Shown piece after piece: positions 17,797 to 34,357 of a stretch of 44,268 bases of DNA (position 1 is the stretch's first letter; each line of letters begins with the position of its first letter). The stretch covers positions 1-44,268 of the forward strand of contig DULZ01000056.1 in assembly GCA_012840125.1 (NCBI GenBank), given 5' to 3'. The notes beneath the pieces were generated by a model, which had not been told where the DNA came from, ran no database searches, and saw nothing but the letters and a program-made list of their open reading frames with translations. The position numbers and the translations under genes were made by a program. This DNA is from Clostridia bacterium. GTDB taxonomy: Bacteria > Bacillota > DULZ01.

Positions 17797-18516
17797 ATGA
17801 AGAGCGAAATTGCGGAACTGGCCCGGCTGCTGACCAATGCCCTCCATGTGGTAGTGCTGACCGGGGCGGGCATGGATACGGAGAGCAACATCCCGGATTT
17901 CCGGAGCCAAACCGGTTGGTGGAGCAAGGTGGACCCGAAAAAGGTAGCCAGCGTTGACACCTTGGAGGAAAACTACGAGCTTTTTTACGAGTTTAACCGC
18001 ATCAATTTGGAACTGCTGGAGAAATGCAAGCCCCATCAAGGACACTACGTCCTGGCCAAACTGGAGGAACAAGGCCTCATCGACGCCATCGCCACCCAAA
18101 ACATCACCGGCTTCCACCGGCTGGCGGGCAGCAAGACCGTCTATGAGCTCCACGGGAACATACGGACCTTCTACTGCCATCGCTGCGGCACTCCCGCCAC
18201 CCGGGAGGAGTTCCTGCAGAAGCAAAGCTGCCGCCGCTGCGGCCGGCAATTGCTGCGACCCGATGTGGTCTTATTCGGCGAAAGCCTGCCCCAAGAAGCT
18301 TGGACCAACACCGTTACGGAAATCCAGCAATCGGACCTGCTCCTGGTCATCGGCACCAGCCTCGAAGTGTACCCCGTCAACCAGTTGCCCCGCCTGGCCA
18401 GGGGCAAGACCGTCTACATCAACCTGGAAGAAGGCCGCCGCGCCGCCTATGATTTTGACTTGTTCATCCGGGGCAAGGCGGGGGAAGTGCTGCAGGAGTT
18501 GATGAACCTTCTCTGA
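17797..18516 (+). CDS. Sir2 (sirtuin) NAD-dependent protein deacylase
   Basis: 239 residues, the usual length of bacterial CobB-type sirtuins. NAD-binding motif GAGMDTESNIPDFR (23-36), TQNITGFHRLAG, catalytic H119 (ELHGN) and a four-cysteine zinc site C127, C130, C145 and C148 (CHRCG ... CRRCG), then VLFGESLP and GTSLEVYP. The usual S of GAGxS is D here (GAGMD), a variant I recall from other clostridial sirtuins. It removes acetyl or acyl groups from lysines, for example on acyl-CoA synthetases, consuming NAD. Start supported by GAGGGGGAG upstream. Neighbours do not suggest a specific target. Confidence 0.93.
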   Translation: MKSEIAELARLLTNALHVVVLTGAGMDTESNIPDFRSQTGWWSKVDPKKVASVDTLEENYELFYEFNRINLELLEKCKPHQGHYVLAKLEEQGLIDAIATQNITGFHRLAGSKTVYELHGNIRTFYCHRCGTPATREEFLQKQSCRRCGRQLLRPDVVLFGESLPQEAWTNTVTEIQQSDLLLVIGTSLEVYPVNQLPRLARGKTVYINLEEGRRAAYDFDLFIRGKAGEVLQELMNLL

Positions 18517-18636: not shown

Positions 18637-19860
18637 TTATTCCACCGCCCACATCTTGCCCAGGAACAAGATGCTGCCGGTGTCTTCCTCGGCAATCACG
18701 AAGACAAAGGGCCGGTCGGCAATGAACCGCAGGGGCTCCATGGCCCCCGTCTCCCTCACTTCCACCACCGTCACCCCGGCAGCCTCGCTGCCCTCTTCAT
18801 TGACCTCGATGACCGCCTTGTGCATTACCCGGTCAATATAGACATCGTCTCGAATTCCGGAAAAATCCGCCCGGTCCGTGAAAGCCTCCGCCATGCCCAG
18901 CTTGGACAAGCTGTCATTTAAGAGCTTGATGCCGTATTCCATTTTGAACCGGGGCAGCTGCACCACCACATCCCGCTGGGTGCTGACACTTTGCTTGATC
19001 TCTTCCCACTTCTCCCTGGTCAGGTTGTCGATAAAGGCGTTAATCTCTAATCCTTCCCTGGGCAGTACCACATACATGGCGGTTTTTTCCTTCCCGTAAG
19101 GGAGCCTGACCACCTGGTAGTCCGCCCCTTCCCCGTACTCGGCCTGACCAAATTTGCTCATCATCTGGACCGGCTGTTTGGCGCCGGTGCCGGCGCGGAA
19201 TTCCGCCGGAAAAGTGTTTTTCCGGTCAAATTGTTCCGTCCACTGTCCTTTAAAATAGATGGCATTGATTAAATACATAATCACATCTTGAGGGATTTCC
19301 CCTTCCAGCATCTTGTCAATCTTACCTTCCGTGGCCTTGGCAATCCACCGGTTAATGGTTTCCGCGGCATCCGGCCGGGCAAAATCCAGTTCCGCCACTT
19401 CCGCCCGGAAAACGTCTTTGTTTACTTCCAGAAAAGCGGGCTGGATCTCTTCCCCGGCCCGGAGCCAAATGGAGTTGCCGATCTTTAACTCAATGTCCTT
19501 GTCCACCCCGGCTAAATAGCCCAGCAGCCGGCGGTAAGTCTCATTTAAAGATGCAAGCTCAATACCTTGGTAGTTCAGGGCTTCCGTCATCCCTTCCATG
19601 GTGGTGCCCCGGGCCCCCTGGTAAGTCATGGTAAGGGCTGTGGAGATACTTAAGGGCGAGATGAAGATGTTCTTTTCTGCATCTTCCCGGTTGATTTCCC
19701 GGAAAAGGTCAAAGGCAAACTCCGTGTTGCCGTCCAGCACTGCCGGGTCCAGCTTGCTCAAATCCACCTGCCGGCTGCCGGTAAATACCCCGGCTCCACA
19801 CCCGGTGAGAATACCGGCGGCCAGGCAAGCCACCAGCAGCACCGTTCCCCATTTTCTCAT
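18637..19860 (-). CDS. Lipoprotein serpin (serine protease inhibitor family)
   Basis: A 407-residue serpin. The signal peptide ends in a lipobox, ILTGC, lipid anchor at C21. Serpin landmarks: the FAFDLFRE helix, NIFISPLSISTALTM, YFKGQWTEQFD, the hinge EVNEEGSEAAG, and the closing RPFVFVIAEEDTGSILFLGKM. The reactive-centre loop runs VTVVEVRETGAMEP; by the standard spacing from the hinge the P1 residue would be near T/G of RETG, though the nearby R could serve. Functional serpins trap a protease in a covalent complex; the AAG-type hinge suggests an inhibitory form. It would sit on the outer face of the membrane. AGGTG precedes the ATG at 19860. Confidence 0.93.
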   Translation of the reverse strand: MRKWGTVLLVACLAAGILTGCGAGVFTGSRQVDLSKLDPAVLDGNTEFAFDLFREINREDAEKNIFISPLSISTALTMTYQGARGTTMEGMTEALNYQGIELASLNETYRRLLGYLAGVDKDIELKIGNSIWLRAGEEIQPAFLEVNKDVFRAEVAELDFARPDAAETINRWIAKATEGKIDKMLEGEIPQDVIMYLINAIYFKGQWTEQFDRKNTFPAEFRAGTGAKQPVQMMSKFGQAEYGEGADYQVVRLPYGKEKTAMYVVLPREGLEINAFIDNLTREKWEEIKQSVSTQRDVVVQLPRFKMEYGIKLLNDSLSKLGMAEAFTDRADFSGIRDDVYIDRVMHKAVIEVNEEGSEAAGVTVVEVRETGAMEPLRFIADRPFVFVIAEEDTGSILFLGKMWAVE

Positions 19861-20070: not shown

Positions 20071-20616
20071 TCACCCCCGGGGCTGCTCCGGCAAGGGGCA
20101 GCCGGATTTTTGCGGCATCAGTCCGTTATCCAAAACGGATTCCGCCGTGGCCTCCATGGCCGCCCTGGCCAGGTGCTGGACGATAAATAAATCAATCACA
20201 CAGCTGGTGGCGCACCAGGACCTTAATGCCTCCGCCAGCTCCGTCAGCTCTTGGAGGTGATGCTTGATATCCTCTAAAGACCGGGCGGCGGCTTCGTAGC
20301 TCTGCTGCAGCCGGATACACTGTTCCATGGTTTTTCCCTTGGCTTCCCGGAGGGCTTCGATCATTTCCTCCACCACTTCCGTGTCCCGGTCCGCAAAAGC
20401 AAGGAACTTGTGCATCAGGGTTTCCGCCTGCTGCTGGAAATCCCGGTAACGCCGGGTCTCGCCCGGATTCCGGTTGGCCGACACCTGGCAGCACATCCTA
20501 ATTAAGGCCGCTCCCATGGCCCCGGTGACAGCCAGTACACTTCCTCCTTTTGGTGAGGGAAAAGTGGTACTGCCTATGGCCTCTACATATTCCCGCACGG
20601 GTTTACCGGTAAACAT
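20071..20616 (-). CDS. Cyclodeaminase/cyclohydrolase family protein (FTCD C-terminal type)
   Basis: 181 residues from ATG 20616, chosen because CAAGGAGTG lies just upstream; a longer frame begins at 20658. The protein is mainly helical and matches the FchA/FTCD_C family: PSPKGGSVLAVTGAMGAAL (about 19-37), then FADRDTEVVEEMIEALREAKG, the usual active-site segment. Members act on formimino- or methenyl-tetrahydrofolate in one-carbon metabolism. No folate gene is adjacent, and family members with diverged active sites exist, so the reaction is a family inference. Divergent from the gene at 21013. Confidence 0.85.
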   Translation of the reverse strand: MFTGKPVREYVEAIGSTTFPSPKGGSVLAVTGAMGAALIRMCCQVSANRNPGETRRYRDFQQQAETLMHKFLAFADRDTEVVEEMIEALREAKGKTMEQCIRLQQSYEAAARSLEDIKHHLQELTELAEALRSWCATSCVIDLFIVQHLARAAMEATAESVLDNGLMPQKSGCPLPEQPRG

Positions 20617-21012
20617 GTAATCACTCCTTGTGCCAGAGTTAGGGTCAACCCTTCTCACCCAAGCCGGGCAGCACTTGAGCTTGGAAAAGCACTGGGTTTT
20701 CGCCCTTCCCTAATTATCTTGTTCTAAATTGCCCGGTTTTTACCTCTTGAGGATGGCAAATTTAATGGTGTACTAAAACGGGCCCGGGATTGCACCCGGG
20801 TACACGGTACTTGGCGGTCCGGAGCACACCATGTGGCCGGGAACCCCGCACCGCAATAAAGAACCGGCCCCTGAGAAATGACGAAATTAATGCTATTTAA
20901 AGAATTTTCATTTGCTTTTTGCAAGAATATTTATTATATTTAAATTACCATAAGACTATGGCAAACTCCTAGCAAAATTTTCGGGAAAACCACCTGCAAG
21001 GAGGCGAACCCC
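20617..21012. other. Divergent intergenic region with a GC-rich palindromic element
   Basis: This 396-base region separates two divergent genes. It holds a stem-loop at 20768-20805: GTGTAC (20768-20773) pairs with GTACAC (20800-20805) and an inner CCCGGG pairs with CCCGGG. The right part (20880-20970) is very AT-rich and is likely the promoter zone of the gene at 21013. No gene and no tRNA fold was found. Confidence 0.45.
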
Positions 21013-22444: not shown

Positions 22445-22809
22445 GGGCAGCCCTCCTTTGCCGACAAAAAGTTGCCAATATTATACACTGTTTTCCTCTC
22501 ACTGGACAACAGCCTGTGCCGGACCTGGCGCAGAATCAGGTTTCTCTACCGGCGGATAAACTCAGGCTCTTTCCCCTTATTTGTGAAACTATGTTATAAT
22601 TAAGCTAGATAAACCAATTAAGTTCTTTTGTCGATTTGAACCTAACGGGGCATACCGGGACCATACCAAGGGTCGGGACCGGCCTTCGCCAAAGGCGCAG
22701 GATCAACCGGCGCTGGGGACATCTGGTCGCAGCACCCAAACAAGCAGCTAACCCAGGGCTACCTATTCAGGTTACCCATACAATACTAATGACAGGATGG
22801 ATGGGCTAT
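22445..22809 (+). other. Upstream region of the LysR gene
   Basis: 365 bases with no separate gene. TATAAT at 22595-22600 is a possible -10 without a clear -35. The frame open from 22636 into the LysR gene has no ribosome site and looks non-coding. Confidence 0.4.
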
Positions 22810-23730
22810 ATGCGAATTGAGCAGCTGCATTACCTGATTGCCGTAAGCCAGCACAAATCCATGACGGCAGCAGCGAAGGAGATTCACGTATCCCAGCAGA
22901 ATCTCAGCGTCGCCCTGCGCAATTTGGAGAATGAATTCGGGGTCCAGCTTTTGGTCCGCTCCCCCCAGGGCATCGCCCTGACACCGGAAGGCGAAATGTT
23001 CGTCCACAAGGCCCAGGAAATTGTCGCCAAGATTGACGAGCTGTATGACCTGTTCAGCAAAGAAAAACCGGTGAAAAAAGTGCTCAAAGGCCGGCTGCAA
23101 ATCGAAGTCGTGCCTTTTATGACCCTGCCGGACGTCCTGGTTTCTTTCCAAAAGCTCCATCCCCAGGTCACCCTGACCCTGCGGGAGAACAGCCCGCCGC
23201 GGATTGTCAAGAACGTAGCCCAGGGCATGAGCGATATCGGCATTATCATCCGGACCGTTGATGAACCGGGTTTAGTGAGATTCATCCATGACCTGGGCCT
23301 GCATTACGATACCATCATCGAGGACCGTGTTTTTGTATGCGCCGGCAAGAAATCACCCCTCAGGCACAGGCACGTCATCTCCCTGCCCGAGCTCTTGAAA
23401 CAAAAACTCATCGTCTGGGGCGTCCTGTACGACTGGCTGCTGGAGATCCTCATGGGCCACCAGGACCCCGCCAAACTGCAGATCCAGAAATCGGACAACG
23501 TGCAGATCTACAAAAAAGTCATTGAAGAAGGCCTGGCCGTCGGTTTTGTCACCGGTATCGGCTTGGAAAAAGAGCTGATCTTTAAAAAGGGTGAAATCAA
23601 AGCCATCTCCATCGAGCAGCACAACCGCATCAGCATTGCCCTGGTCTATCCCCCTGAAAATGCCCTCAGCGAAACAGCCAAAGAATTCATTGCTCACCTG
23701 AAATCCGCCACCCAGGATTATCGTGGCTGA
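22810..23730 (+). CDS. LysR-family transcriptional regulator
   Basis: 306 residues from ATG 22810. The N-terminal winged helix-turn-helix (about 2-60) reads MRIEQLHYLIAVSQHKSMTAAAKEIHVSQQNLSVALRNLE in two overlapping parts of the usual LysR pattern; an effector-binding domain follows (about 90-300). The frame could start upstream, but the family begins here. It lies directly before a six-gene catabolic set on the same strand, with palindromes in between, so it very likely controls that set in response to the substrate or an intermediate. Confidence 0.93.
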   Translation: MRIEQLHYLIAVSQHKSMTAAAKEIHVSQQNLSVALRNLENEFGVQLLVRSPQGIALTPEGEMFVHKAQEIVAKIDELYDLFSKEKPVKKVLKGRLQIEVVPFMTLPDVLVSFQKLHPQVTLTLRENSPPRIVKNVAQGMSDIGIIIRTVDEPGLVRFIHDLGLHYDTIIEDRVFVCAGKKSPLRHRHVISLPELLKQKLIVWGVLYDWLLEILMGHQDPAKLQIQKSDNVQIYKKVIEEGLAVGFVTGIGLEKELIFKKGEIKAISIEQHNRISIALVYPPENALSETAKEFIAHLKSATQDYRG

Positions 23731-31386: not shown

Positions 31387-31421
31387 AAAGGATCCGGAAA
31401 CACGCGTCTTCCGGATCCTTT
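31387..31421 (+). terminator. Terminator of the Xsc locus
   Basis: AAAGGATCCGGAA (31387-31399) pairs perfectly with TTCCGGATCCTTT (31409-31421), followed by CTTTC. It begins 10 bases after the xsc stop. Confidence 0.88.
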
Positions 31422-31565
31422 CTTTCTGCCGTCATGCAAAGGTTTATGCCGGAACCCCTCACTGTCACCCCGGTCATGGGAAGCTCGCCAGGGTTCATCG
31501 GATTGACAACCAGGCGCTGCCATCGTTACAATGAAGACACAATACTGAAGAATCGAGGGATGTTT

Positions 31566-31937
31566 ATGCCGTGGCTCTTGCTGGATTATCCTAAATGATC
31601 GACGGTACGGAGGGCCAAGGATTGGCTCCGCCAAAAAGGAATAGCTTACGAAACCCGCCATATCCTCCATGAGCCTTTAACCAAGGAAGAAATCATGGAT
31701 CTGCACCGGAAGAGCGGCCTGCCTTTAAAAAAGTTTTTCAATACCAGCGGCGTCAAATACCGGGAACTGGGATTAAAAGACATCATTGACACCGCCCCGG
31801 AAGACGAATTGTACGATTACCTGGCCGCCCACCCCATGCTGGTGAAAAGACCGGTGCTGACCGACGGGACGACGGTACTGGTGGGCTTTCGGGAAAAAGA
31901 ATGGGAAGAGGTATTTGGCGGGAAGGAGCCCAAGTAA
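31566..31937 (+). CDS. ArsC/Spx-family protein with in-frame UGA at the catalytic cysteine (probable selenoprotein)
   Basis: Read through UGA (31596-31598), the frame gives 123 residues of the ArsC/Spx-like family: LLLDYPK-U-STVRRAKDWL (U11), then KSGLPLKKFFNTSGVKYRELGLKD in two familiar blocks, MLVKRPVLTDG and VLVGFREKEWEEVF. In the family the motif is YPKCSTCRKA, so UGA stands exactly where the catalytic cysteine is, and the second cysteine is V. ATG 31566 is six bases after GAGGG. A hairpin at 31608-31630 has the position of a bacterial SECIS. A nonsense mutation is the alternative, but coding is intact on both sides. Such proteins are thiol/selenol oxidoreductases; the substrate is unknown. 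An annotation that stops at UGA would begin at ATG 31695 and lose the active site. Confidence 0.78.
31608..31630 (+). promoter_or_regulatory. Candidate bacterial SECIS element
   Basis: Nine bases after the UGA codon, CGGA (31608-31611) pairs with TCCG (31627-31630), then after a two-G bulge GCCAA (31614-31618) pairs with TTGGC (31622-31626) around the loop GGA. The loop starts 21 bases past the UGA and contains G, as SelB-binding hairpins usually do. Confidence 0.65.
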
Positions 31938-32821: not shown

Positions 32822-34357
32822 TCACCTGCTCAAGATCGTCTCCATTTTATCCGCCAGCACGATGATGCCTTTGGTCTTTAAGCGCGGGAAATTAGCATAC
32901 TTCCAGTAGCTGTCGTCAGTTTCCGATTTTTTAATAGGAGTGATCACCTGCTCCAGTTTTCCGCTTAATAAATCCCCATATTCTCTGTCGATTTTCACCA
33001 GATCAAGCCCCAACTGATCCCGCTGGGTATGATAGATTACCACCCCGTTTTCGTCGGTGATACCAAAGGCATCCACTCCCAATTCCTTGGCAACGGCAGC
33101 CACGTTGTTCTGGTCAATCACCCGTTCCAGATCCAACTGTTGGGCGCGCTTGCCCAGGTTTTTCAGCCTGCTTTCCAAGACCCGGTCGCCTATAATTTGC
33201 TGGAGCTTGTCACTCTCACTATGCAGTTTCACCGTCAAGTCCGACACCGACTCCAGGATGGAATACTGCTCTTCGGCGGAAGCGGCAATCTCCTCGCTGA
33301 AGGCTACCGTTTCCGCTGCGATGCGGTGCAGGGGCTCGATGCACCGGGCCACTTCTTGAATGGAAGCCTGGAGCTGTTCATTGGTACTGGATACCTCCTG
33401 CAAGTGATGGGCGATCTCCTGGAAGACGTGCCCCACTTGCCGCAGCCTTTGCTCCGTTTCGCCCACTACCCGGTTACCATCCTTAGTGCTGTGGTGTACC
33501 TCTTGCACCTTGGCCGCCGCCGCCACGATGTCCGTTTGGATTTCTTTGATAATTCCCACAATGTTGTCTGCGGCCTCCCCCGCTTCCTGGGCCAACTTTC
33601 GCACTTCCTCGGCGACCACTGCGAAACCTCTGCCGTTCTCCCCTGCCCTGGCCGCCTCAATGGCGGCATTCAGGGCCAGCAAGTTGGTCTGCTCCGCAAC
33701 GGCGGTAATGCTGTCCACAATTTCCGCAATGCCCCCGGCTTTGTCCTTGAGGGCCAAAACCATGCCGTAAAGCTCTTCTGCAGAGCCGGAGATCTCCCCC
33801 ATTTGGGATTTCAAAGAGTTGGAGGACTGTTCACATGCCCTGGTTTGCAGCAGGGCCGTCTCGCTGATGGACCGGCATTTCGCCACGTTGGCATCCTGGA
33901 GTTTACTGGCTTCAATCATGTGATTGGAAGCCCTGGCCACGGATTCCACCATGCTTTGCTGCTCCTGCAGCTCTTCGGCAATGTCGGCACAGGTGGAACT
34001 GACCTGCTCCGCCGATGCGGTCAATTCGTGGATGGCCCGGTCTAAATCATCACTCATTTGCAGCACTTCACAGGAAGAGTGGAGCATCTTCTTGTTGGAT
34101 TCCTTGACATATGCGGCCAGCTCCAGCAGCTTTGGATCATCCGACGCCTGCACTCCCTCGTAATTGCCCTGGGCTACCTCCAAAGCCCGGCTGACCATGT
34201 CCCCCCGGTCCCGGGAACTTTGGCGCAGCAGCAGGAAATTGCCGTATGCTAAAACCACCACCCATAAGACAACCCACCAAACTTGATTGGCCAATAGGAT
34301 CACTGCACAAGAAATGAAAGCTACCAAATTGAAGACCACTACTTCCTGTTTTTTCAT
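32822..34357 (-). CDS. Methyl-accepting chemotaxis protein with C-terminal sensor-like domain
   Basis: 511 residues. Two N-terminal membrane helices (about 8-24 and 26-44) are joined by a very short outside loop, so there is no periplasmic sensor. The cytoplasmic signalling hairpin tip is clear near 235-265 ([26 protein letters not shown]). After the coiled coil, the last ~110 residues form a separate domain ([35 protein letters not shown]) resembling the extra domain of some Firmicute chemoreceptors, possibly a PAS/Cache-like ligand site inside the cell. GAGAGG precedes ATG 34357. No other chemotaxis genes are nearby. Confidence 0.92.

Follow-up and report, generated by a model that had tools for sequence, protein, structure and literature searches.

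A predicted cysteine-free selenoprotein with an ArsC/Spx fold in a Clostridia bacterium

The locus and its reading frame

The stretch of DNA analyzed here, which we call the window, comprises 44,268 nucleotides of contig DULZ01000056.1 from a Clostridia bacterium whose assembly (GCA_012840125.1) spans 2.47 Mb and is 97% complete. A single frame on its forward strand, open from upstream of the ATG at 31566, contains a TGA at 31596-31598 and ends with a TAA at 31935-31937. The features of the locus are as follows.

31390-31427, forward strand: putative intrinsic terminator of the upstream gene xsc, a perfect 10-bp inverted repeat with a T-rich tail, read from the sequence
31503-31532, forward strand: putative sigma-70-type promoter, TTGACA-18-TACAAT (11/12), from a consensus scan
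31555-31559, forward strand: Shine-Dalgarno sequence GAGGG, 6 nt 5' of the ATG at 31566, read from the sequence
31566-31937, forward strand: predicted gene for an ArsC/Spx-like selenoprotein of 123 residues, MPWLLLDYPKUSTVRRAKDWL..., translated with U at the TGA
31596-31598, forward strand: UGA read as selenocysteine (Sec) at the catalytic-cysteine position, from the alignment with homologues
31609-31632, forward strand: predicted bacterial-type SECIS hairpin within the coding sequence, from the minimum-energy fold with comparative support
31695-31937, forward strand: truncated ORF of 80 aa, lacking the active site

The last of these is all that a standard ORF search reports, just as the initial annotation had anticipated in proposing that gene callers would start at the ATG at 31695 and drop the active site. 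Since the same would happen elsewhere, members of the Sec branch are likely to be misannotated as fragments of 60-110 residues.

The upstream gene, xsc, encodes sulfoacetaldehyde acetyltransferase, and its putative terminator, which has a loop of 9 and thus exceeds the loop limit of the automated scan, sets the selenoprotein gene apart from it. With the promoter match, the GAGGG and the ATG following in that order, the selenoprotein gene looks like a separate transcription unit. A search of Rfam gave no match. The genes of the window between 22636 and 31376 all point in one direction and encode a LysR regulator, a hydroxyacyl-CoA-type dehydrogenase, an MFS transporter, an aldehyde dehydrogenase, a TPP enzyme and Xsc, which together look like a breakdown cluster for sulfonate or related C2 compounds. 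Further upstream, on the reverse strand, the window carries a full-length bacterial serpin (18637-19860, 392 bits).

Fold and family of the product

With U at the TGA, the protein matches the Pfam ArsC model at 63.7 bits (cut-off 24) and, with Sec read as Cys, passes TIGR01617 (YusI/MgsR-like; 85 bits, cut-off 75.05). It stays below the cut-offs of TIGR00014, the arsenate reductase (glutaredoxin) model (52.5 bits, cut-off 106), and of NF041106 (ArsC_rel_Se_1; 21.1 bits, cut-off 85), and scores far below those of the Spx models NF002459, NF009210 and NF009885. In the AlphaFold model (pLDDT 93.7), Sec11 directly precedes a helix formed by residues 12-23. The best match among solved structures is 3gkx (TM 0.90, 46% identity), followed by 3fz4, Spx and 2m46. 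Ranked by sequence, the nearest are 3gkx, 3fz4 and 2m46, all ArsC-related, rather than Spx. The protein has an ArsC/Spx fold of the TIGR01617 branch and is neither a canonical arsenate reductase nor a CxxC-switched Spx. The initial label of an ArsC/Spx-like selenoprotein stands as to fold and selenocysteine, and its family is narrowed to TIGR01617.

The window protein contains no cysteine at all, a property shared by all ten near-branch UxxV/A/S proteins, of which it is one, whereas the Cys forms have two or more cysteines with one exception. This makes an internal CxxC or UxxC switch, disulfide or selenenylsulfide impossible, so that all chemistry must rest on selenium and a second thiol must come from an outside partner.

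These features bear on two functions that the family membership would suggest. Under the first, the protein would be a selenium-dependent arsenate reductase whose Sec attacks arsenate, the resulting arsenite leaving through Acr3. The family is named for ArsC, Acr3 is encoded in the host genome and in 9/10 Sec-form genomes, and known UxxS ArsC selenoproteins likewise lack the second Cys (PMC1088965, PMC2398784). In the alignment with E. coli K-12 ArsC, Cys12 corresponds to Sec and the equivalent of Arg94 is not only kept but invariant; however, Arg60 is replaced by Asn and the region of Arg107 is missing. We take Arg60, Arg94 and Arg107 of ArsC to be the arsenate-binding arginines around the catalytic Cys. 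Further points against this function are the score of the protein, less than half the TIGR00014 cut-off, and the absence from ten Sec-form genomes of the GshA-type ligase (PF04262) for a glutaredoxin cycle, the one enzyme of glutathione synthesis covered by our search. Finally, the gene lies outside the arsR-acr3-arsM operon, which is found on another contig. With Acr3 encoded there alongside arsR and arsM, arsenate reduction is conceivable, but we do not favor it and consider it unlikely. That operon (L110, G000:C22:33500-41500) is located directly 3' of the genes for glycine reductase complex C, and its arsM, when checked for Sec, had none.

Under the second, the protein would be a transcription regulator of the Spx/MgsR type that binds RNA polymerase and uses Sec as a redox sensor. 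While the fold matches Spx and the TIGR01617 model is itself named "Spx/MgsR family RNA polymerase-binding regulatory protein," a CxxC disulfide switch cannot operate without cysteine; the low scores with all three Spx models and the ArsC-related nearest structures by sequence add to the case against it, and we regard such a regulator as quite improbable.

Evidence for decoding of the UGA as selenocysteine

Among about 400 searched genomes of the host's phylum, 96 contain a homologue. The catalytic codon of 76 distinct sequences is TGA in 30 and TGC or TGT in 46, and neither TAA nor TAG occurs at this site in any of the 76, around 30 of which are of the Sec type. The alignment column thus holds U or C, and the residue aligned with the Sec site is Cys in 46/46 distinct Cys homologues, which places the TGA exactly where the initial annotation had put it, at the first cysteine of the motif. 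The second motif cysteine is V in the translation, as had also been noticed, giving U-S-T-V. In the tree, the window protein falls into a clade of six U-S/T-T-V proteins (support 98/93); the same TGA is present in its five UxTV orthologues, which belong to four other genera and are 60-75% identical. G001, the nearest relative, belongs to another genus of the same family; its gene also carries TGA at this codon, its protein shares 89/117 residues, and the two genes differ at 26, 12 and 59 sites in codon positions 1, 2 and 3. This pattern indicates that the protein sequence is maintained by selection both before and after the TGA, consistent with the coding conservation claimed at the outset. 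A single-sequence scan of the genome contigs returned one Cys homologue only. Internal stops in four further homologues (G070, G111, G199 and G272) do not fall on the Sec site; these are Cys forms, with the stop C-terminal where shown.

All four sel genes whose presence the initial annotation had named as a check are found in the host genome. The selA gene (611 bits) adjoins selB on contig C41, tRNA-Sec (selC; 73.8 bits, anticodon UCA) lies on C37, and selD (L029, G000:C1:27402) lies on C1 and carries its own TGA at an N-terminal GUAAK site, making it a selenoprotein gene itself. Across the genomes tested, selA exceeds the cut-off in 29/29 with a TGA form and in 15/45 with a Cys form (Fisher p 7e-10, kinship ignored).

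Bacterial Sec insertion requires a SECIS just 3' of the UGA. The hairpin with a G-containing loop first proposed at 31608-31630 is present, at the slightly different position of 31609-31632; it starts 10-11 bases 3' of the UGA and exposes a GGA loop at 31619-31621, 21-23 nt past it. Its energy alone is unremarkable, being no better than that of shuffled sequences (z about 0) and not clearly better than that of synonymous recodings (p 0.08), and we dropped raw energy as evidence for a SECIS. Instead, we turned to codon choice, which can be compared because the stem codons specify A-K-x-W-L, residues that Cys homologues encode too. In the near branch, TGA forms retain 6.1/8 stem pairs and Cys forms 4.3/8 (p 5e-7, kinship ignored). 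The stem Lys codon is AAG in 15/15 TGA forms versus 7/24 Cys forms, the stem Ala codon ends in C or T in 17/17 versus 19/44, and the stem Leu codon is CTT or CTC in 11/17 versus 8/45. Changes on both sides of a pair occur at one pair only in the near stem, and a tree-based sign test of Sec/Cys state against the hairpin had about five independent pairs, too few for power (p 0.25). Support for the predicted SECIS thus comes from comparative codon choice rather than from folding energy.

Taken together, the conserved TGA, the sel genes, the co-occurrence with selA and the codon bias support the prediction that the gene at 31566-31937 encodes a selenoprotein. It is true that a lone TGA in an otherwise Cys-type motif resembles a point lesion, and a nonsense mutation or a misread TGC or TGT would leave either a dead gene or a plain Cys protein. 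Yet the TGA is common to the five orthologues from other genera and to other Sec branches, relatives that carry it show no other lesions, the gene is under purifying selection, TAA and TAG never take its place, the TGA form co-occurs perfectly with selA, and the second Cys was lost together with the TGA; a pseudogene or sequencing error is strongly refuted and has very little probability left. A host-wide change of TGA from a stop to a sense codon would also explain an in-frame TGA, but it is refuted by other window genes that end at TGA (17797-18516, 20071-20658, 22636-23730 and 32822-34357) and opposed by the complete Sec machinery.

Proposed mechanism and relation to known selenoproteins

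We favor, with a probability of about 0.88, a 123-residue selenoprotein of the TIGR01617-branch fold that arises by hairpin-directed decoding of the UGA and most likely acts as a one-selenol oxidoreductase. The host SelA, SelB, SelD and tRNA-Sec would decode the UGA at 31596-31598 as selenocysteine, directed by the hairpin that lies 10 nt past it within the gene. The selenolate may then attack a disulfide, a sulfenyl group or an oxyanion, and the selenium adduct would be resolved by an outside thiol. As PF04262 was not found in ten Sec-form genomes, thioredoxin or another small thiol is likelier in this role than glutathione. Monothiol glutaredoxins offer a possible working parallel, having one catalytic chalcogen and resolution by an outside thiol, although they belong to another family and the GshA-type glutathione ligase was not found in these genomes.

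ArsC-family selenoproteins of the UxxS and UxxC types have been known since 2005-2008. As the initial annotation noted, such proteins were predicted from metagenomes: a UxxS form from the Sargasso Sea in 2005 (PMC1088965), and pfam03960 UxxS and cd03032 UxxC forms ("arsenate reductase 2") from GOS in 2008 (PMC2398784). A UxxS form was also described in two deltaproteobacteria (PMC1794560), and a 2026 catalogue lists TIGR00014 UxxS and NF041106 UxxC without naming TIGR01617 (PMC13188914). The UxxV, Cys-free branch is absent from that catalogue, and open-access papers on selenoproteins and Spx yielded nothing relevant. The window protein resembles the UxxS arsenate reductase selenoproteins in its ArsC fold, in Sec replacing the catalytic Cys and in a motif without a second Cys, but it is UxxV, belongs to TIGR01617 rather than TIGR00014 and lacks two of the three arsenate-binding arginines. 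Its fold (ArsC/Spx) and the position of its Sec agree with those of the NF041106 and GOS cd03032 UxxC proteins, which, however, keep a resolving Cys. The Cys-type TIGR01617 structures from Bacteroides fragilis (3gkx), Streptococcus mutans (3fz4) and Staphylococcus aureus (2m46) have the same kind of YP-x-C-S-T site, but with Cys-x-x-Cys where the window protein has Sec-x-x-Val. A Cys-free protein of the ArsC fold provides a clean natural test of a single Sec without a resolving partner.

It is tempting to extend this picture to a Cys-free ArsC/Spx branch, present in several families of the host's phylum, of one-selenol oxidoreductases with a new partner or substrate, within a superfamily that has repeatedly gained and lost Sec and uses two hairpin registers; we hold this wider reading tentatively, at somewhat less than even odds. 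The best tree implies at least nine changes between Sec and Cys, or five if the starred branches alone are believed, from an alignment of few columns. In the far UxxC branch, another hairpin, GCGAAAGC GUG GCUUUCGC, lies three bases further 3' and forms 4-8 of 8 pairs, compared with a mean of 2.6 in Cys forms. An Spx-like Sec branch (UxTC; L071, L072, L025, L073, L075, L076, L074, L098, L027 and L097), separate from that of the window protein, has the GCGAAAGC-GUG-GCUUUCGC register over the same codons. The gene neighborhood of the UxTV clade shows no conserved context. Shared context was seen only for UTSx proteins of family f52, in 3/4 loci, with 2-oxoacid oxidoreductase genes before and murG and glucose-6-phosphate isomerase genes after, an arrangement that indicates no clear function.

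With Sec and Cys forms mixed in a small family, and a hairpin that appears and vanishes in synonymous codons, gain and loss of Sec can be traced directly. One genome (G360, contig C145) carries two Sec copies (UTTC; L044 and L059) 2.7 kb apart, which fall among the very close Cys forms L037, L048 and L054, a case of very recent exchange between Sec and Cys.
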